Assembly: GCA_024278855.1 (NCBI GenBank)
Contig: JAJRSJ010000033.1
Span: forward strand, 1 to 64,000
Length of the DNA stretch: 64,000 nt
Direction of reading: 5' to 3'
Origin: Alphaproteobacteria bacterium
Lineage (GTDB): Bacteria; Pseudomonadota; Alphaproteobacteria; Caulobacterales; Maricaulaceae
Part shown: positions 42,091 through 57,168 of the stretch, piece after piece
Layout of the letters: every line of letters begins with the position of its first letter
Position numbering within the stretch: the first letter of the stretch is position 1
The notes under the pieces: generated by a model
What the model saw: only the letters and a program-made list of their open reading frames with translations
What the model was told of the DNA's origin: nothing
Database searches by the model: none
Position numbers and translations under genes: made by a program

Positions 42091-43404
42091 TTATGTGTTC
42101 ATGCTTTCAAAGAACTCCGCGTTACTTTTGGTGTCTTTCAATTTACCTAACAAAAATTCTATGGCGTCCATAGTCCCCATAGGGTTGAGGATCCGGCGCA
42201 GGACATAGGTTTTTTGCAGCTCAACCGGGCCCAGTAATAATTCTTCCTTACGTGTCCCGGATTTTGTTACATCTATAGCCGGGCAAACCCGCTTGTCCGC
42301 AACTTTACGGTCCAATACTATTTCTGAATTGCCAGTACCTTTAAATTCTTCGAAAATAACCTCGTCCATCCGCGATCCCGTTTCGATCAAAGCGGTTGCA
42401 ATGATTGTCAAAGATCCGCCTTCTTCGATATTACGCGCAGCCCCGAAAAACCGTTTTGGCCGCTGCAAAGCATTGGCGTCAACACCGCCGGTTAATACCT
42501 TACCGGAACTTGGTACAACCGTGTTATAGGCCCGTCCCAAACGGGTGATAGAATCCAGTAATATAATCACGTCTTTTCCGTGCTCGGTCAAACGTTTAGC
42601 TTTTTGGATGACCATTTCGGCCACTTGAACATGGCGAGTTGCCGGTTCGTCAAAGGTCGAACTTACCACCTCGCCTTTAACTGATCTTTGCATATCGGTC
42701 ACTTCTTCCGGTCGTTCGTCAATAAGCAATACAATCACATAGACTTCCGGGTGGTTGGCTTCGATGGAATGGGCGATATTTTGCAAGATTACGGTTTTAC
42801 CAGTGCGCGGCGGCGCTACGATCAAACAGCGCTGACCTTTACCAATTGGCGAAACGATATCAATCACCCGGCCCGAAATATCTTTTAATGTCGGGTCTTG
42901 TATTTCCATGGTTAAACGGTCGTCTGGATAAAGGGGGGTGAGGTTATCAAAATGTACTTTATTGCGCGCTTCTTCCGGCGTTTCAAAATTAACCGAATGA
43001 ACTTTAGTCAGAGCAAAATAACGTTCACCGTCGCGCGGGCTCCGGATTTCGCCAGATAATGTATCGCCGGTTCGCAGGCCCATTTTTCTGATCAGTTTAG
43101 GGCTGACATAAATATCGTCCGGCCCAGCCAAATAATTAGCTTCTGGAGAGCGCAGAAAACCAAACCCGTCTTGCAGCATTTCCAAAACGCCGGTGCCGGA
43201 TATTTCCACATCCTGGTCCGCTAATTCTTTAAGCACTGCAACAAATATTTCTTGCTTACGCATAGCGCCAGCATTTTCCAAACCTACGGCTTCAGCAAAT
43301 TGCACCAACTCGGCTGGTTTTTTCTTTTTAAGATCATCAAGACCTATTTTTGTGATCGATTCAATATCAACATAAGCCGGGTCTAGCTTTTTTTGTATAT
43401 TCAT
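42091..43404 (-). CDS. rho: Transcription termination factor Rho
   Basis: [54 protein letters not shown]. Confidence 0.98.
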
Positions 43405-44013
43405 AGCATTGCTTTATTATTTTACTGGTTTGAAAAAAATAGCGTAGAGTTACGCACTTTTGTATTTTGAAAATATAGAAAGGTATTTTGTTTATCAAAA
43501 TAGGATTTGTCATCTTGGGAAGATATATTTCTTATATGGCAAAGATGTTTTACCCGTCAAGATAAAACACATTAAAATATCATAATTTGGCCGTTAGCTC
43601 ATAGTTTTACACATTTGTTCTTCCTCTCTTTATTTGTATATATAAATAGAGATTGAAGTTGAGCCTGTGAAAATGTGTTTAAAATTAAGGTTTTGGTAAG
43701 ATATACTAATATTGTCTTAATATGCACACATCATGAATAATATAGAGACTGTTGATAAGTTTTTATCTTTTTTATTTTGCAAATAAAAACAAATGTTTAG
43801 ACTAATTTATCTGTGCATAATTTTTGGGTAAGTATTTTTCAACACAAACTCACATTTTTTCTGTTTGTTTTATTCACAGGGTTATAAACTGTTAAAAACT
43901 TGGTTATTTATCCCCGTAAACTACATAGTGGAGAAATAACACTTGAGCCTGGTGGATAAAGCTTTGATTATCCCCAAAACCGGGCTTGGCTCGCAATTAA
44001 GTGTCGAGGTAAT
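43405..44013. other. oriC: Putative chromosomal replication origin (oriC) region
   Basis: AT-rich 0.6-kb divergent gap between rho and ppsR; TTATNCACA matches at 43812-43820 (rc TTATGCACA) and 43870-43878 (TTATTCACA); 8/9 matches to TTATNCACA or TTATCCACA at 43720, 43750 (rc), 43951 (rc), 43968; flanking genes transcribed away. Confidence 0.75.
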
Positions 44014-44862
44014 ATGACGACCAAAGATGTACAACAAAACAGTATTCGCTCAATATATTTCCATGTCCATTTGGTATCGGATTCAACGGGCGAAACATTG
44101 GTTGGTATATCGCGGGCAAGCTGCGCTCAATACCAACACGGATTGGCTGTGGAACATCTCCACGCTTTGGTCCGATCTGAATTACAATTGGAAAAAGCAT
44201 TGGAGTCTATAAAAGGGTTTCCCGGCGTGGTGTTTTATACAATGGTCAACCAAAAGCGCCGCCGCCGTTTGGAGCAAAAATGTGCGGAGCTGAATATTGC
44301 GGCTGTCTCGGTTTTAGATCCATCCCTTGCAACACTTGGTCGTTATTTGGGGGCGCCCATGAGCTCTGAAATTGGCGCACAACGGACAATGGACGCGGAG
44401 TATTTTTCGAGAATGGGCGCTTTGGATTTTGCTATGAACCACGACGACGGTCAAAATATTGACGGCTTAAATCAGGCCGATATAATATTACTAGGTGTCA
44501 GCAGGACGTCTAAAACCCCCACATGTATATATTTAGCCAACCGGGGTTTCAAAGCGGGTAATATTCCTCTAGTTCCAGGCGCAGCCCTATCAAAACAAAT
44601 TACTAGCTATACAAAACCACTTATCGTTGGTTTGGTGTCCAGTCCTGATAGGATTGTCCAAATTCGGCGCCACCGCCTAACATCTTTGGGTGATAATCCG
44701 GATACGGATTATGTAGACAAACAGACGGTTCGCGCCGAAATGATGCAGGCCAAACGTTTGTTTGCCAAACACAAATGGCCTGTTGTAGATGTGACGCGGC
44801 GCTCTATTGAAGAAACATCAGCTCGAATTATCAATTTATATCAAGATAGATCATCACAGTGA
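44014..44862 (+). CDS. ppsR: Pyruvate, phosphate dikinase regulatory protein (kinase/pyrophosphorylase, DUF299)
   Basis: FHVHLVSDSTGETLVGISRA...DIILLGVSRTSKTPTCIYLANRGFKAGNIPLVPG. Confidence 0.95.
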   Translation: MTTKDVQQNSIRSIYFHVHLVSDSTGETLVGISRASCAQYQHGLAVEHLHALVRSELQLEKALESIKGFPGVVFYTMVNQKRRRRLEQKCAELNIAAVSVLDPSLATLGRYLGAPMSSEIGAQRTMDAEYFSRMGALDFAMNHDDGQNIDGLNQADIILLGVSRTSKTPTCIYLANRGFKAGNIPLVPGAALSKQITSYTKPLIVGLVSSPDRIVQIRRHRLTSLGDNPDTDYVDKQTVRAEMMQAKRLFAKHKWPVVDVTRRSIEETSARIINLYQDRSSQ

Positions 44863-45488
44863 GCAAAGTAATCACACCTGTTTCTAAGAAATCTCAACCC
44901 ACAGTGGTTTTGGCTTCGGCTAGTGCCATACGCCGAGAAATTTTACACAAAGCCGGTGTTGAATTTACGGTTTCGCCGAGCGGTGTTGATGAAGCTCGCA
45001 TCAAAGACCAATATGTTAAACTTGGCAAACCCGCCGCGCAGCTCGCCTTGCGGCTCGCACACGAAAAGGCAAAAACCACCCAAACCCTAAACTATAACCT
45101 TGTAATCGGTGCAGACCAAGTCCTTGAATTTAAAGGAAAAATATTTGATAAACCACAAAGCTTGGCTGAAACCAAAGCTCGGTTGTTAGAATTACGTGGT
45201 CAGGAACACAAACTGATTGGCGCTGTGTGTATTGTCCAAAACGGCGAACTTGTCTGGGAGCATATCAGTGTAAGTAAGCTGAAAATGCGGAATTTCAGCG
45301 ATCAGTTCTTAGACGATTATTTACAAAGAGAAGGCAAAGGGGTGCTTGCTTGTGTCGGCGGATATAAATATGAAGCACTTGGCGCGCAATTATTTGAGCG
45401 TGTGCAAGGTGACTTTTACGCGGTTTTGGGTTTACCACTTCTTCCTTTACTAAGTGAATTGCGGGCGCGCGGCGCACTCCTTAAATAA
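44859..45488 (+). CDS. maf: Maf family nucleotide pyrophosphatase
   Basis: VVLASASAIRREILHKAGVEFTVSPSGVDE...LVIGADQVLEF. Confidence 0.93.
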   Translation: MSKVITPVSKKSQPTVVLASASAIRREILHKAGVEFTVSPSGVDEARIKDQYVKLGKPAAQLALRLAHEKAKTTQTLNYNLVIGADQVLEFKGKIFDKPQSLAETKARLLELRGQEHKLIGAVCIVQNGELVWEHISVSKLKMRNFSDQFLDDYLQREGKGVLACVGGYKYEALGAQLFERVQGDFYAVLGLPLLPLLSELRARGALLK

Positions 45489-45508
45489 AGCCGTAGAAAG
45501 ATATAAAT

Positions 45509-46312
45509 ATGAGTGCGAGGCAAGGTCATAAGGGTTTACTTAAACTGGCAGGGGTTGCCGGTTGGCCTGTGCACCACTCTCTATCGCCGTTTTTGCATAA
45601 TTACTGGCTAAAGAAATCAAACTTAAACGGGGCCTACACGTTATTTGCCGTACATCCAGACGAGGCTAATTATGCGTTTCAAAGCCTAAAGCGGACAACT
45701 ATATCTGGTCTTAATATTACCATTCCTTTGAAGGGTCTGGCCTACGGGGCTGCTGACGAAGTTACATCTGATGCCCGTAAGCTTGGTGTGTGTAATGTGC
45801 TTTATAAAAAGCAGGGAAAGCTCATCGGCCATAATACGGATATGGAGGGGTTTGCTAGCCCTCTTTTACACCATATTGGACACAATTTTATTTTAAATAA
45901 TACGGTCACACTCATAGGGGCTGGCGGCGCGGCGCGGGCGGTTTTGGGTTCATTGCTAGCTTTGGGTGTGCCTGAAATTCGGCTACTTAACCGGACTGAT
46001 GAGCGGGCTAAACAATTGGCCACCAATATTAATATCCCGAGCCTATATGCTTGTGAATGGGTGAAGCGACAACAGGCGATTGCTGGAACCGGCTTATTGA
46101 TCAATGCCAGTTCGGCGGGTATGTCGGGGTATGACGCGCTGGATGTTGATTTATCCCTAATGCCGGATGATGCTTGGATATATGATCTTGTTTACACGCC
46201 CTTGTTAACACCTTTAATGCGCAAGGCTCAAAACCGGGGACTGCGTACGATTGGCGGGCTTGACATGTTGATTGCACAAGCGCGGCCTTCTTTTAAATTG
46301 TTTTATGGGTAG
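45509..46312 (+). CDS. aroE: Shikimate dehydrogenase
   Basis: KLAGVAGWPVHHSLSPFLHNYWL...SGLNITIPLKGLAYG...LIGAGGAARAVLGSL. Confidence 0.96.
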   Translation: MSARQGHKGLLKLAGVAGWPVHHSLSPFLHNYWLKKSNLNGAYTLFAVHPDEANYAFQSLKRTTISGLNITIPLKGLAYGAADEVTSDARKLGVCNVLYKKQGKLIGHNTDMEGFASPLLHHIGHNFILNNTVTLIGAGGAARAVLGSLLALGVPEIRLLNRTDERAKQLATNINIPSLYACEWVKRQQAIAGTGLLINASSAGMSGYDALDVDLSLMPDDAWIYDLVYTPLLTPLMRKAQNRGLRTIGGLDMLIAQARPSFKLFYG

Positions 46313-46371
46313 ATGCCGCCGAGCAGTGATGACATAAAGGCAGTTTTAAGTAATTATTTGAAAGCGAAACG

Positions 46372-46956
46372 ATGATTATTATAGGTTTGACAGGTTCGAT
46401 CGGTATGGGAAAAACCGTAACCGCCAAAATGTTCGAAGACGCCGGGGCATATATATTTGATGCAGATGCTGCCGTGCATTCATTATACGCTAAAAACGGA
46501 ACAGCAGTGCCTTTATTGCGGGCCGTTTTTCCTGATGTTATAGTGGAGGGGGCTGTTGAGCGAACAAAACTCATGCAGCACTTAAACAAAGACCCACTTA
46601 ATATCGGGGTGCTGGAAAGCTTTATCCATCCAATGGTGGTTGATTTACGCAAACAGGCTATAGATTTAGCTAAAGCAAACGGGAAACAAGTTTTTGTTGC
46701 TGATATTCCGCTATTGTTCGAAACTGGCGGGGACGCCTATGTGGATAAAATTATTGTGGTCAGCGCAAAACCAAGCGTGCAGAGAGATCGGGTTTTAGCG
46801 CGTCCCGGCATGACCCCAGAAAAATTTGCCCTGATAAAATCACGGCAACTGCCAGACGCGAAAAAAAGAGCCAGAGCCGATTATGTGATTGAAACGGACA
46901 AAGGCATGGCTTACGCCCGCAGGCAAGTACAAAATATTATGCAAGAGATATTGTAA
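46372..46956 (+). CDS. coaE: Dephospho-CoA kinase
   Basis: MIIIGLTGSIGMGKTVTAKMFEDAGAYIFDADAAVH. Confidence 0.97.
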   Translation: MIIIGLTGSIGMGKTVTAKMFEDAGAYIFDADAAVHSLYAKNGTAVPLLRAVFPDVIVEGAVERTKLMQHLNKDPLNIGVLESFIHPMVVDLRKQAIDLAKANGKQVFVADIPLLFETGGDAYVDKIIVVSAKPSVQRDRVLARPGMTPEKFALIKSRQLPDAKKRARADYVIETDKGMAYARRQVQNIMQEIL

Positions 46957-47424: not shown

Positions 47425-48390
47425 TTACTGCGTTTCTTTTAGGCAGGCATCCATTTTTGATTTATCTTCATCACTCATTCTTAGTATTTCTTGGGCGTCT
47501 AAGGCAAAGTCACTGACAACCATATCGGCGTTAATGGCGTAATTTGTATAAGCGGCGAAGTTCCCGGAGGCTTGAAGTTCATCATCAAGGTCGAAAGACC
47601 CTACTAAAACCGGGATTTTTTTATCTCGCAAAGCTTTAGCGACATCCTCTGGAATTAATTTTTCTCCTGTCCAGGCAGTCATAATGCTGGCCGGTATACC
47701 GAGATCTTCCAATTTTTTTATATCGCCGGGGGTAGAAATACCAACTGACAATGCCATTTCCGGCGCTAATTTGTACAGACGCAAAGCTTGTTCTGTGTCA
47801 TGGGAAATTAACTTAACCTGATGCGCCATACCAGCGTCTCGAATAGTGTTTAAAACTTTAGCCTCATCCGCAGAGGGCTTGAAGTCTATTTCCAGATAAA
47901 TTTTATCTTTTGCAAAGCTAAGAATATCGGCAAATGAGTTTGGGTGAAATGATGTAATCTCGCCGTTGGTGTCCTTTAGAAATATTTTTTGGGGCTGTTC
48001 CCATGTCGTATTGGTGATTGGGCCCGTACCAGTTGATCTTTGATCCCAAACTTCATCGTAGAAAACAAACTGGGTGCCATCTTTAAGGCGGGCAACATCA
48101 ATTTCAGCAATTAGTACGCCTTCTTCATGTAATGCTTGTAAACCCTGTATTGTGTTTTCTGGATATTTTGAACTTTCATGGGTGCCGCGATGGGCAGCTA
48201 CAAGGGCTACACCATTTGGCTTGCAGGCAAACAGTTCCAAAACTGATGGATATGGCGAAATATCTTGCGTGTTTTCTTGTGTGCCTTCTGGGGTATTTGA
48301 GGCTTGGCACGATGAAAGTGCCGCTCCGAAAAGTAAGAATATGGATGAAGCTGTGATAATATTCCGTAACTTAAGTGTAGTTTTAGCCAT
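47425..48390 (-). CDS. Glycerophosphodiester phosphodiesterase family lipoprotein (copy 1)
   Basis: LSSCQASN lipobox; VALVAAHRGTHESSKYPENTIQGLQALHEEGVLIAEIDVARLKDGTQFVFYDEVWD. Confidence 0.85.
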   Translation of the reverse strand: MAKTTLKLRNIITASSIFLLFGAALSSCQASNTPEGTQENTQDISPYPSVLELFACKPNGVALVAAHRGTHESSKYPENTIQGLQALHEEGVLIAEIDVARLKDGTQFVFYDEVWDQRSTGTGPITNTTWEQPQKIFLKDTNGEITSFHPNSFADILSFAKDKIYLEIDFKPSADEAKVLNTIRDAGMAHQVKLISHDTEQALRLYKLAPEMALSVGISTPGDIKKLEDLGIPASIMTAWTGEKLIPEDVAKALRDKKIPVLVGSFDLDDELQASGNFAAYTNYAINADMVVSDFALDAQEILRMSDEDKSKMDACLKETQ

Positions 48391-48572
48391 TTTGTTCCCC
48401 TAATTATTTATTCTTGATGTTCTGTTTGTATATACTGGATTGTTGGCGGTGTATATGTTTATGGGTTATGATTTCTAAACCCCTATTTAAACTTCGGCCA
48501 TACTCGTTAATGATATAAATTATAACAAAAGTACAAGTGATATCAGGCACATACAGGCGTCTAGCTGTACAG

Positions 48573-49571
48573 CTAACGTCTTTCTTTTAAGCAATTTTGC
48601 ATGTTTGTTTTTGCATCCCCGGTAATTTCAAGAACTGGTTGGACATCAAAGGCATAATCCGTAACGATCAAATCTGGATGTACGGCATAATCAATATAAG
48701 GTGTGAAATTACCAGAGGTTTGCAGCTTATCGTCAAAACCAAAGAAAGACCCTGCTAAAATAGGTATTTTGCTGGTTCGCAAAACTTTAGCCAGCTTGTC
48801 TGTAATTGGGCCTGCGCCAGTCCATGCGGTTAAAACTTCTGCCGGTATGCCCAGTTGTTGATAGACTTTAAGATCAGATGGATTATTGACCCCCACGGAC
48901 AAGGCGGCCTTGGGGGCGAGCTTGTGTAAACGCAGGGCTTGTTCGGCGGTATAAGATATCAAGATCACTTGATCCAACATGTTGGCAATGCGGATACTGT
49001 CAATAACTTTGGCTTCATCCACAGATGGATTGAAATCAACTTCAAGATAAAGCTTGTCTTTAGCGAAGGCTAGCACATCTGCAAATGCACTAGGGCGGTA
49101 CGAGGTGATTTCTCCATTGGTGTCTTTTAGAAATAGTAACTGGGATGCGGGCCAATCAGTTGCGGTAATTGGCCCTGTTCCGGTGGAGCCACGGTCCCAT
49201 GTGTCATCATGAAATACAATCTGGGTTCCGTCTGTTAAGCGGGCGACATTGATGACGGCAAATGGAACAGAGTTATTATACAGAGCTTGCAAGCCTTCTA
49301 TAGCGTTTTCGGGAAATTTAGATCCTTTATGGGTGCTGCGATGGGCTGCAACAAAAGCTGCGTCACCAGGCTTGCAGGCAAACAATGTTAAAACTGATGG
49401 AATTGGCTTAATGTTAATGCTGTTTGACGCAATATTACGGGCTTTGTCGTTGACTTTAACTGTATTCGGAGGGGTGTTGGCCGCTTGGCACGACGAGAGA
49501 AGCCCTACAAAAACTGTGGATAGTGCCAATAAAGTTATAGTATCACCTAACATAGTTTTTTTTGAAGCCAA
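48573..49571 (-). CDS. Glycerophosphodiester phosphodiesterase family lipoprotein (copy 2)
   Basis: LSSCQAANT lipobox; AFVAAHRSTHKGSKFPENAIEGLQALYNNSVPFAVINVARLTDGTQIVFHDDTWDRGSTGTGPIT; paralogous to 47425..48390. Confidence 0.85.
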   Translation of the reverse strand: MASKKTMLGDTITLLALSTVFVGLLSSCQAANTPPNTVKVNDKARNIASNSINIKPIPSVLTLFACKPGDAAFVAAHRSTHKGSKFPENAIEGLQALYNNSVPFAVINVARLTDGTQIVFHDDTWDRGSTGTGPITATDWPASQLLFLKDTNGEITSYRPSAFADVLAFAKDKLYLEVDFNPSVDEAKVIDSIRIANMLDQVILISYTAEQALRLHKLAPKAALSVGVNNPSDLKVYQQLGIPAEVLTAWTGAGPITDKLAKVLRTSKIPILAGSFFGFDDKLQTSGNFTPYIDYAVHPDLIVTDYAFDVQPVLEITGDAKTNMQNCLKERR

Positions 49572-49676: not shown

Positions 49677-51020
49677 ATGAAAAAAGGAAATTCTACAAGC
49701 ACAATGATTTTTGCTTTGGCGAGCGCACAAGGTCGGGCCGGTATTTCTGTTATACGCATGAGCGGCTTAGGGGTTGGTGATGCGTTATCTTGTTTAACCG
49801 GGAGAGGTTTACCACCACCGCGTTCGGCGTGCTTGCGGGTTTTAAAAAACAAACAGGCAGAACGTCTCGATGAAGCCTTGGTGATCTGGTTTCCAGGCCC
49901 GGCCAGTTTCACAGGCGAGGACACAGTTGAGCTGTATGTTCACGGGAGTGTTGCTGTTGTCGAGGCCGTAAGTGAGGCGCTCTATGATCTGGGTTTGCGA
50001 CAAGCTGAAGCGGGTGAATTCACGCGCCGGGCCTTTGAAAACGGCAAGCTGGACTTGACCGAAGCTGAGGGTTTGGCAGACTTGATCGACGCGCAAAGTG
50101 AGGGTCAAAGACGCCAAGCGCTTCGACAAATGCGCGGCGGATTGCGAGATATTTATGAAAACTGGCGCACACAGATATTGGACGCATTTGCGCTGGTAGA
50201 GGGCGAAATAGATTTTCCCGATGAAGGCGATGTTCCTGAGGCTCTGGCAAAAAAAGCGGGGCCTAGCTTAGAAAACCTGGCTAAAGAGCTTCAGGTACAC
50301 ATAAATGATAGTGGGCGCGGGGAACGTATTCGTAGCGGGTTAGACATTGCGATAATCGGGCCGCCAAATGTGGGAAAATCTAGCATTTTGAATAGGCTTG
50401 CCCGCCGCGACGCCGCTATCGTCACGCCCGAAGCCGGCACGACCCGCGATATAGTCGAGGTTCACATGCACATTGCGGGGCTAACCGTGTGCATTTCCGA
50501 TACAGCCGGCCTACGCGAAACCGATAATTTAATTGAGGCCGGAGGGGTTAGGCGCGCCGAAATACGGGCAAAAGATGCAGATATTAGGCTAGGGGTAATT
50601 GATTTAACCAAGCCAGAAGACCAAGCAATATTGAATAAACTGACCAAAGGTGATTTTGTATTGTATAATAAAGCCGATATGGTCAGGTCTTCGGGGCGCA
50701 AAAATGTTTCACGTGAAACATTTCGCGTAAGTGCGGTCACAGGCCAAGGCTTTGATGAGCTAGAGGCCGCCTTGGAGCAGGCGATCAAAACTAGATTTAT
50801 GCAAACGGAACAAGCCGGGCTGACAAGAGTGCGACATGTAGAATGTGTTCGAACTGCATTGGAAGCTATTGAAAATGCACTGCAAAACCTAAAAATTGCC
50901 CCGGAATTAGCTGGAGCAGATTTGCGCCAAGCTTTGGAGGCAATCCGGGAGTTGGCAGGGGAATCGGATATAGAGGCAGTTTTAGACAGGGTTTTTTCAC
51001 AGTTTTGCATAGGAAAGTAA
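49677..51020 (+). CDS. mnmE: tRNA uridine-5-carboxymethylaminomethyl(34) synthesis GTPase
   Basis: TMIFALASAQGRAGISVIRMSG...IAIIGPPNVGKSSILNRLARRDAAIVTPEAGTTRDIVE; C-terminal FCIGK. Confidence 0.98.
   Translation: MKKGNSTSTMIFALASAQGRAGISVIRMSGLGVGDALSCLTGRGLPPPRSACLRVLKNKQAERLDEALVIWFPGPASFTGEDTVELYVHGSVAVVEAVSEALYDLGLRQAEAGEFTRRAFENGKLDLTEAEGLADLIDAQSEGQRRQALRQMRGGLRDIYENWRTQILDAFALVEGEIDFPDEGDVPEALAKKAGPSLENLAKELQVHINDSGRGERIRSGLDIAIIGPPNVGKSSILNRLARRDAAIVTPEAGTTRDIVEVHMHIAGLTVCISDTAGLRETDNLIEAGGVRRAEIRAKDADIRLGVIDLTKPEDQAILNKLTKGDFVLYNKADMVRSSGRKNVSRETFRVSAVTGQGFDELEAALEQAIKTRFMQTEQAGLTRVRHVECVRTALEAIENALQNLKIAPELAGADLRQALEAIRELAGESDIEAVLDRVFSQFCIGK
50705..50720. promoter_or_regulatory. 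parS: parS site (ParB binding), inside mnmE
   Basis: Perfect palindrome TGTTTCACGTGAAACA. Confidence 0.93.
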
Positions 51021-52988: not shown

Positions 52989-53623
52989 CCCCGGAACAAT
53001 TTCAGCGCCATATATCAAAGGAGGAAAATGTTTCACGTGAAACATTTCTTCTGTTTGAGCAATGGTTAGGCCTGCTAACCCATTGGAATAAAAGGATAAA
53101 TTTAGTTTCGGCACCAACAATATACAATTTCTGGTCGCGTCATGCGTTGGACAGTTGGCAGTTGGTTGAATTGTTACCCAAGGGTACAAAAACTGTACTC
53201 GATATGGGCGCGGGCGCGGGCTTTCCCGGCCTAGCCATGGCGATTGCCTTAAAAGGTCGCCCAGATTGTCTAGGTGCACAAATAACATTGGTGGAATCCA
53301 ATGGTAAGAAATGCAATTTTCTGCGCACAGTGATCCGCGAATTGGCCCTGCCTGCCAAGGTCGTACAATGCCGCGCCGAAAACCTAGAGCCGAAAAATTA
53401 TGATATAATCACCGCCCGTGCTTTTGCGCCCTTGCCCGAATTGCTCGGCTACAGCCTGCCGTTTTTCTCACCTGATACATTGGCCATTTTCCCCAAAGGC
53501 GAAAACTGGCAAAGCGAAGTCACCGCCGCCCGCAAAACCCACACATTTGATTTGACCACAAAAGACAGCCAAACCAGTGAAGCTGCGAAAATCTTGTGCA
53601 TAACAAATCTACAGAGAACATAG
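52985..53623 (+). CDS. rsmG: 16S rRNA (guanine(527)-N7)-methyltransferase
   Basis: [20 protein letters not shown]...[13 protein letters not shown]...[17 protein letters not shown]. Confidence 0.97.
53029..53044. promoter_or_regulatory. parS: parS site (ParB binding), inside 5' end of rsmG
   Basis: Perfect palindrome TGTTTCACGTGAAACA. Confidence 0.93.
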
Positions 53624-53850: not shown

Positions 53851-53949
53851 CCCGGACACAAAGCACATACACAATTACCAAATTATCTGTAGGGTGGGTT
53901 GGGGTTTTGCTCGTAACCCACCGCCGTGCAACAGTATCAGGGGAGCAGC

Positions 53950-56900
53950 ATGAGTGAACAACACATAGCCGACTATCTGGCCAAGGTGCAATCCGTCTAC
54001 GCGACCGGGGTTACTACCGAGCATTCGTTTCGTGCGGCGCTTGGGTTTTTGTTTGACGGTGTTGCTGATGATGTGCGGTGTATCAATGAGCCGAAAGCGG
54101 TGGTTGATGTTGGGCGTCCGGATTTTGTTTTCAAGCGCACTATAGGCCAAAACAAGGGTGGAAAACAACAAATCACCGTTGGGCATTGCGAGGCCAAGGA
54201 CATTGACAAAGACATCAATCCCAAGGCCATGAATGATTTCAATAAGGCGCAGTTTGACCGCTATGTCAAAGGCTTGCCCAATCTTGTTTATACCAATGGT
54301 CTGGATTTTCGGTTTTATGTGAACGGTGAGTTTATCCGCGAAATTAGCGTTGCTGATTTCCTCATGGGCATTGTCCCCAAGCCGGAGAATTACGGCGCAC
54401 TTTATGCGGCCCTCAAGGATTTCACGGCCCAACGCTTGCAAACAATAACGTCCGCCAAAGCATTAGCCCAGATGATGGCCGGAAAGGCGGTGTTGATCAA
54501 AACCGTATTGGCTAATACTTTACGTGCAGACGCAGATCTGGAATCTGAACTGGCCGGACAATATAAAGCCTTCAAAGACCAACTTATCCACGATTTGACC
54601 ATAGAGGGGTTTGCCGATATTTACGCCGAGACCATAGCCTACGGCCTGTTTGCAGCGCGGCTGCACGACGAAACGCCCCAGGATTTTTCGCGAGAGGAAG
54701 CTCTGGAGCTATTGCCCAAATCCAACCCGTTTTTGCGAAAATTATTTTCCTATGTGGCCGGGCCGAGCTTGGACGAACGTATCAGGCGCGACATTGACGA
54801 ATTGGCGGAAATATTTCAGGCGACAAACCTGCAAAAACTGTTCAAAAATTTTGGTAGTTTCACCAAGCGCAATGACCCGTTCATCCATTTTTACGAGACA
54901 TTTCTGGCCGAGTATAACCCGAAAAAACGCAAGGCCAGAGGCGTGTGGTACACGCCCGAACCGGTGGTTAATTTTATTGTCCGGGCCGTGGATGATGTGC
55001 TGAAATCCGAATTTGGATTGAGCGATGGTCTGGCCGATACCAGTAAAATACCGGTGAAAATTGATACGGGGCAAACGGACAAATCCGGCAAAGCCAAATA
55101 CGAGCTGCGCGAAATGCACCGGGTGCAAATTCTGGATCCGGCCACGGGCACCGGCACGTTTTTGGCCGAAGTCATCAAACAGATTGCCCCGAAAATACAA
55201 GACATCGCCCCGGCCCAATGGTCTAAATATGTCGAGGACGATTTAATCCCGCGCTTGCACGGGTTCGAGCTGCTCATGGCAAGCTATGCCATGTGCCATA
55301 TGAAGCTTGATATGATGCTGACCGATATGGGCTATAAACCAACTAAAGCCGAACCACCGCGCCTAAATGTATTTCTAACCAATTCACTGGAAGAGGGCGA
55401 ACGTGAAGTTAGAGATTTATTCATGGCCAGATGGCTGTCCGACGAAGCCAAAGGCGCCAACGAAGTCAAACGCGATAAGCCAATAATGTGTATTATAGGC
55501 AACCCGCCTTATTCGGTGAGCAGTTCAAATAAAAGCCCGTTCATCGAGGCCTTGGTTGCGGATTATAAAAAAGATTTGAACGAACGTAATATCCAGCCTT
55601 TGTCAGACGATTATATAAAATTCATTCGCCTGTCCCAACATTTGATCGACAAAAACGGTGAGGGGGTCTTGGCATTTATTACCAATAACTCCTATCTGGA
55701 CGGGCTTATCCACCGCCAAATGCGCAAATGTTTGTTAGAGGGTTTTGATAAAATCTATGTGGTTGATTTACATGGCAGCACCAAGAAAAAAGAACGCGCC
55801 CCAGACGGTAGTGCAGACAAAAATGTGTTCGATATTATGCAAGGTGTGAGTATTTTGGTGGCGGTGAAAACCAAGACGGACAAGAAAAAAGGAACGCTTG
55901 CAAGTGTACGGCATTTGGATTTATGGGGGGGGCGTAAAGACAAGAATGAAAAGCTCTTTGCTTTAAACATACGGAAAAAAATATTTCAAAAAATAGAAAC
56001 CCCAGAACCGAATTATTTTTTGGTGCCGAAAGATTTTGCTGCGCAAGAGGAATATGAAAAGGGGTTTAAGGTGTTTGATTTAATGTCCATAAACTCTTCA
56101 GGAATAAAAACGCATAAAGATAAATTTGCCATTAGTTTTGATAAAAAAACAATTATTTCAAGGGTAGAAGATACCTATTCATTGGAGCGTGAAGAGCTTC
56201 GTACAAAATATAAACTGGGCAAAGATGCGAGAGACTGGAAAGTGTCTTATATGCAGTTAGATGTTAGAGAAAATCTTTCCAATAAATTGTACATGCAATT
56301 AGACTATCGTCCTTTTGATAAACGTTGGACGTACTACACAGGGAAAACAAAGGGCTTCCATAGTTATCCCCGTGAAGCAATAATAAAGCACATGCTAGAG
56401 AAAGATAATTTTTCTATGTTATTTAAGCGCTCGAGAATTTTGGGTGAGCATCAGTCATTTAAACACGTATCAGTATCAAGAGGGCTCCTAGACTTAAACT
56501 ATTTTGGTGACCAAAGTTTCTTTCTCCCCCTCTACCTCTACCCCAACACCACCACCTCACAATCCGATGCGTTTGCGCCTACTGAGCGCACCGTCAATAT
56601 GGACGCGAAAATCCGGGCTAAAATCGAGAAATCCGCTAGCGGTAAAAAACACGGCACACCGGACGAGCTTGCGATATTTGATTATATTTATGGGGTGCTG
56701 CATTGCCCGGCTTACCGCGAAACCTATAAGGAATTTCTCAAGATAGATTTCCCGCGTGTGCCTTATCCGGCCTCGCCCGCCAGTTTTTGGGATATCAGCG
56801 CCAAGGGTACGCAATTGCGCAAGCTACATTTGATGGACGACGAAGCCATTGGCAAAACGCCTTACAAATTTGACGGCACCCCGAACGAAATGGGCGATAG

Positions 56901-57168
56901 TGTGGTGGACAAACCCAAATTCACGCCGGGCGCGGGTAAGGTCGGCACCGTCCACATCAATGAAACCCAATATTTTGAAGATGTGCCGCGCACTGCATGG
57001 GAGTTTTATATTGGCGGCTATCAGCCAGCCCAAAAATGGCTCAAAGACCGCAAGGGCAGGACGCTTAGTTTCGATGATATCCGCCACTACCAAAGAATAA
57101 TAAAAATCTTGAGCGAGACCGACCGGATTATGCAGACAATCGATATGGATTTGGGGGATAAGCCATGA
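53950..57168 (+). CDS. Type ISP/IIG-like restriction-modification enzyme (N6-adenine DNA methylase, apparently without helicase domain)
   Basis: N-terminal PDFVFKR...GHCEAKDI (PD-(D/E)xK-like); RKARGVWYTPEPVVNFIVRAVDDVL; ILDPATGTGTFLAEVI; IIGNPPYSVSSSN. Confidence 0.85.
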   Translation: MSEQHIADYLAKVQSVYATGVTTEHSFRAALGFLFDGVADDVRCINEPKAVVDVGRPDFVFKRTIGQNKGGKQQITVGHCEAKDIDKDINPKAMNDFNKAQFDRYVKGLPNLVYTNGLDFRFYVNGEFIREISVADFLMGIVPKPENYGALYAALKDFTAQRLQTITSAKALAQMMAGKAVLIKTVLANTLRADADLESELAGQYKAFKDQLIHDLTIEGFADIYAETIAYGLFAARLHDETPQDFSREEALELLPKSNPFLRKLFSYVAGPSLDERIRRDIDELAEIFQATNLQKLFKNFGSFTKRNDPFIHFYETFLAEYNPKKRKARGVWYTPEPVVNFIVRAVDDVLKSEFGLSDGLADTSKIPVKIDTGQTDKSGKAKYELREMHRVQILDPATGTGTFLAEVIKQIAPKIQDIAPAQWSKYVEDDLIPRLHGFELLMASYAMCHMKLDMMLTDMGYKPTKAEPPRLNVFLTNSLEEGEREVRDLFMARWLSDEAKGANEVKRDKPIMCIIGNPPYSVSSSNKSPFIEALVADYKKDLNERNIQPLSDDYIKFIRLSQHLIDKNGEGVLAFITNNSYLDGLIHRQMRKCLLEGFDKIYVVDLHGSTKKKERAPDGSADKNVFDIMQGVSILVAVKTKTDKKKGTLASVRHLDLWGGRKDKNEKLFALNIRKKIFQKIETPEPNYFLVPKDFAAQEEYEKGFKVFDLMSINSSGIKTHKDKFAISFDKKTIISRVEDTYSLEREELRTKYKLGKDARDWKVSYMQLDVRENLSNKLYMQLDYRPFDKRWTYYTGKTKGFHSYPREAIIKHMLEKDNFSMLFKRSRILGEHQSFKHVSVSRGLLDLNYFGDQSFFLPLYLYPNTTTSQSDAFAPTERTVNMDAKIRAKIEKSASGKKHGTPDELAIFDYIYGVLHCPAYRETYKEFLKIDFPRVPYPASPASFWDISAKGTQLRKLHLMDDEAIGKTPYKFDGTPNEMGDSVVDKPKFTPGAGKVGTVHINETQYFEDVPRTAWEFYIGGYQPAQKWLKDRKGRTLSFDDIRHYQRIIKILSETDRIMQTIDMDLGDKP

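Follow-up and report, generated by a model that had tools for sequence, protein, structure and literature searches.

The gap between rho and ppsR as the putative chromosome replication origin of a marine alphaproteobacterium that lacks hemE

Chromosome replication in this marine alphaproteobacterium almost certainly starts in the 609-bp gap between rho and ppsR. An oriC at this position, as a sequence-only reading of the same DNA had proposed, is supported by the density of DnaA boxes, a place kept in 20 relatives, a CtrA/DnaA module, parS sites close by and, in two relatives, the position of the GC-skew minimum. We are also highly confident of the fuller account, in which the gap is the origin of a Robiginitomaculum-like alphaproteobacterium, belongs to the Caulobacter Cori type with its DnaA, CtrA and ParB scheme, and has lost its neighbor hemE. 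The origin is thus of an already known kind with one neighbor missing, and what is more unusual is the turnover of heme genes next to it. The window analyzed here (the whole stretch of 64,000 nucleotides) sits on contig C40, which is 104,837 bp long; the genome comprises 79 contigs totalling 2.72 Mb and has a completeness rating of 100%. The gap and its neighbors are as follows.

42091 to 43404, minus strand: rho, left neighbor (NCBIfam TIGR00767, 683 bits)
43405 to 44013, no strand: putative oriC, divergent intergenic gap of 609 bp (29% GC, box density, conservation, position)
43461 to 43860, no strand: AT-richest 400 bp in the window (25.5% GC, lowest among all 400-bp stretches)
44014 to 44862, plus strand: ppsR (DUF299/COG1806), right neighbor (NCBIfam NF003742, over cut-off)
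44859 to 46956, plus strand: maf-aroE-coaE, conserved right flank (NCBIfam and comparison with relatives)

The AT-rich divergent gap of about 600 bp described earlier is borne out, and its GC content compares with ~50% across most of the window. Whether measured over 100 bp or over 400 bp, GC content in the window is lowest inside the gap or at its edge, and an unwinding region, a role that we infer, likely lies somewhere in 43461 to 43860. An Rfam scan of the window returned four tRNAs only and no match in the gap, which also holds no CcrM GANTC site. The flanking genes run away from the gap on both sides, NCBIfam confirms that they are rho and ppsR, and the ppsR-maf-aroE-coaE order is conserved among relatives, all as the sequence-only reading had it. 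By eye, a possible tiny leader frame (MCKTMS) with a ribosome-binding-like sequence lies upstream of rho (43560-43650, minus strand). The coaE/mnmE interval holds two similar adjacent ORFs (47425-49571, minus strand) that look by eye like secreted glycerophosphodiester phosphodiesterases in tandem duplication.

The position of the gap on the chromosome can be judged from gene order, parS sites and GC skew. The left neighbor varies among relatives (rho, hemE, others), with the boxes and the CtrA/DnaA module persisting, and mnmE-mnmG and dnaQ switch sides while the gap remains beside ppsR, a pattern that inversions about an origin would produce. Genome-wide there are just two perfect parS sites, both within 9.0 kb of the gap.

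50705 to 50720, no strand: parS site TGTTTCACGTGAAACA, exact, within mnmE, 6.7 kb from the gap
53029 to 53044, no strand: parS site TGTTTCACGTGAAACA, exact, within the ORF after mnmG (probably rsmG), 9.0 kb from the gap

The 1080-aa ORF that follows the probable rsmG (53926-57168, plus strand) resembles, by eye, a single-chain restriction-modification enzyme. GC skew, which had been suggested earlier as a check, agrees with an origin at ppsR in the relatives and is indistinct on the contig itself. Twenty evenly spaced 20-kb samples were read from each of the single-contig genomes G014 and G036, and in both the cumulative skew minimum falls between the samples flanking ppsR, and the reverse turn comes after about half a chromosome; in G036 skew to the right of ppsR is close to 0 and the contrast is weak. 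On contig C40 mean skew is -0.015 left of the gap and +0.050 right of it. Cumulative skew there is lowest at ~21 kb (-360), slightly under its value at 40-44 kb (~-320), so that this contig alone does not pinpoint the gap. The gap might instead be a mere divergent promoter region under DnaA and CtrA, with replication starting elsewhere: both proteins act in this group as transcription factors too, with sites in promoters, the gap does separate two divergent genes, and the conserved blocks could include the rho promoter. We regard this as very improbable given that boxes and module stay in place when the left neighbor changes, that the skew minima of two single-contig relatives fall at ppsR and that parS sites lie nearby.

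The motifs found within the gap are listed below.

43605 to 43613, plus strand: DnaA-box-like TTTTACACA, 1 mismatch
43674 to 43682, minus strand: DnaA-box-like TTAAACACA, 1 mismatch
43685 to 43699, plus strand: CtrA-type site a, TTAAGGTTTTGGTAA (TTAA-N7-TTAA, 7/8)
43706 to 43720, plus strand: CtrA-type site b, CTAATATTGTCTTAA (7/8), exactly 21 bp past site a
43720 to 43728, plus strand: DnaA box ATATGCACA, 1 mismatch, directly after CtrA site b, conserved
43750 to 43758, minus strand: DnaA box TTATCAACA, 1 mismatch
43812 to 43820, minus strand: DnaA box TTATGCACA, exact
43870 to 43878, plus strand: DnaA box TTATTCACA, exact
43951 to 43959, minus strand: DnaA box TTATCCACC, 1 mismatch
43957 to 43969, minus strand: IHF-like site AATCAAAGCTTTA, single consensus match, weak
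43968 to 43976, plus strand: DnaA box TTATCCCCA, 1 mismatch

Six of these boxes had been recognized before, all with the positions and strands given here; the first two in the list had been missed. In a scan for the TTATNCACA-like form, outside which the Caulobacter G-box form falls, the gap holds 8 matches with at most 1 mismatch against a mean of 1.27 in first-order Markov simulations, none of which reached 8 (0/1000), and 2 exact boxes against 0.05 expected (p 0.002). Such a comparison with composition-matched sequence had been called for at the outset, as had one of density with other stretches: elsewhere on the contig (103.9 kb read) no 609-bp stretch exceeds 4 boxes, and the gap is the densest. 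The aligned position of the box at 43720 reads ATATRCACA in 8 of 10 genus relatives, and in all 20 of the genus and family relatives the boxes upstream of ppsR outnumber the maximum of control stretches from the same locus. That AT-rich DNA produced the cluster by chance, the gap being the AT-richest part of the window, is less probable still than the promoter explanation; the simulations speak against it, and it is already contradicted by the relatives, which keep both position and spacing from genus to genus. Least probable of all is an origin at dnaA with the gap as a relic, for although dnaA often adjoins origins outside the alphaproteobacteria, here it lies on another contig (C34) in a 19-kb neighborhood with at most 3 boxes per 609 bp and no box cluster, and perfect parS sites occur near the gap and none near dnaA.

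The case for CtrA at the origin rests on spacing and conservation because the raw number of sites is not above chance: the gap holds 3 CtrA-like sites (at most 1 mismatch) against 2.7 expected, no excess over composition-matched sequence, and both sites of the pair are imperfect. In an alignment of eleven genus sequences, the conserved block at ~43680-43730 consists of AAAATTAAGNNTTTGGTAAG, then CTAATATTNNNTTAAT, then ATATGCACACA, which reads as two CtrA-type sites with a DnaA box directly after; five genus relatives (L050-L054) carry a perfect TTAA-N7-TTAA aligned to site a. At a threshold of at least 14/16 bases per pair, and with related loci that are not independent of each other, a CtrA-type pair spaced by 21 bp was found in 23 of 54 loci from five families (the next commonest spacing in 5), compared with a mean of 0.29 and a maximum of 2 in 200 composition-matched simulations. 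The pair is present in families f1, f4 and f5, whereas at this threshold the 5 loci of f2 and the 6 of f3 yielded none. Across the 2.72-Mb genome, the copy in the gap is the sole perfect match to a relaxed tandem CtrA pattern, and the genome encodes both CtrA (86% identity) and DnaA. Among the relatives, only the closest (L033, L034) have an IHF-like match at a comparable position.

By analogy with work on Caulobacter and with ChIP-seq in Hyphomonas, the boxes at 43605-43976 would be where DnaA loads and oligomerises, and the oligomer would melt AT-rich DNA for helicase entry. CtrA, probably as a phosphorylated pair, would occupy both of its sites, whose 21-bp spacing amounts to two helical turns, and would there lie next to the conserved DnaA box at 43720; it could repress by exclusion and so keep cells that are not replicating from initiating. 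Segregation of the new origins would follow, with ParB bound at the two parS sites 7-9 kb away. The normal left neighbor, hemE, would have been lost together with the remaining heme synthesis.

This assignment can be set beside known origins. The Cori of Caulobacter crescentus lies between hemE and COG1806 with DnaA, CtrA and IHF sites (PMC1914354), and parS is within 8 kb of it (PMC4468827). It shares with the window COG1806 (ppsR) as right neighbor, an AT-rich gap, several weak DnaA boxes (PMC1914354), CtrA sites of the TTAA-N7-TTAA form, one IHF-like site (in the window a weak match) and parS at less than 10 kb (PMC1914354, PMC4468827). It differs in that the window has no hemE and rho abuts the gap, in having five CtrA sites against one evident tandem pair, and in its G-box form, the boxes scanned for here being TTATNCACA-like. 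Among the marks of a Caulobacter-type origin, the COG1806 side and the CtrA sites are present, the hemE side is absent and the IHF site is a weak candidate. Of those of bacterial origins in general, a DnaA-box cluster, an AT-rich region and nearby parS are found at the sequence level, and a cumulative GC-skew minimum at this place is seen by sampling in G014 and G036, that of contig C40 lying at 21 kb. In Hyphomonas neptunium CtrA binds beside the origin by ChIP-seq (PMC7200025), whereas in the window binding is predicted only. Origins of Wolbachia and other Rickettsiales were likewise predicted through the hemE/COG1806 neighborhood and DnaA, CtrA and IHF sites (PMC1914354), but the Wolbachia origin has parted from COG1806 and remained beside hemE, whereas in the window COG1806 is the neighbor that was kept and hemE is gone. 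Despite the absent hemE, common descent with the hemE/COG1806 origins is supported by the conserved CtrA/DnaA module.

The absence of hemE from the left flank, which the sequence-only reading had pointed out, extends to the whole genome: hemE, hemB, hemC and hemH have no match anywhere in it, and contig C40 holds no hemE remnant, only a 19-residue chance match. hemE adjoins ppsR in genus-mate G010 and in most of the remaining family. Since G010 has hemE at the same place, its absence here is put down to loss of the heme pathway across the genome rather than to a mistaken locus; the organism seems to have lost the whole of heme synthesis. The genome retains two heme-copper oxidase subunits (COX1-type), so that a need for external heme is predicted, and the organism is predicted to be a heme auxotroph with aerobic respiration.

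Heme genes are unevenly distributed in related genomes. Sister G006 is without all three heme genes searched there, and G002 and G005 keep hemH, with hemB and hemE not found. The arrangement hemA-hemC(D)-hemB-hemL, with hemE-hemF in the same region, is found in G001, G007, G008 and G013. In G004 at least hemE-hemF is present, and G011 keeps only hemA-CD-B-L in the region read. The cluster is represented by the following locus.

L109, 1558 to 9317: C5-type heme gene cluster (hemA, hemCD, hemB, hemL, hemE, hemF), also in L108, L110 and L112 and partial in L111 and L127

Its hemA is a glutamyl-tRNA reductase, an enzyme of the C5 route; alphaproteobacteria usually take the C4 route. The HemE of the cluster is ~35% identical to the native HemE and falls in the tree outside all sampled members of the order, on a long, fully supported branch. 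This C5-type operon, which lies away from the origin in the genus-mates, is apparently foreign, and the simplest reading is that it was gained, that native genes were lost and that later losses followed in some lineages. Gene absences in metagenome-assembled genomes could in part be assembly gaps. A broader proposal, which we offer tentatively and think somewhat less probable than its converse, is that the 21-bp CtrA pair is ancient in the origins of the order and that, separately, the heme swap or loss in the genus unlinked hemE from an unchanged origin.

It is useful to have the origin of an uncultured lineage fixed in this way. hemE is an unreliable marker of alphaproteobacterial origins, and a box-rich gap beside ppsR was found in 20 of the 20 relatives examined. 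The predicted need for external heme could guide cultivation. In the marine relatives of Caulobacter, CtrA control of the origin has been viewed as independently evolved (PMC4468827); an ancient tandem CtrA pair, if true, would speak against this view. The fixed 21-bp spacing offers a specific mark, open to testing, by which cell-cycle control might be recognized at origins outside Caulobacter.
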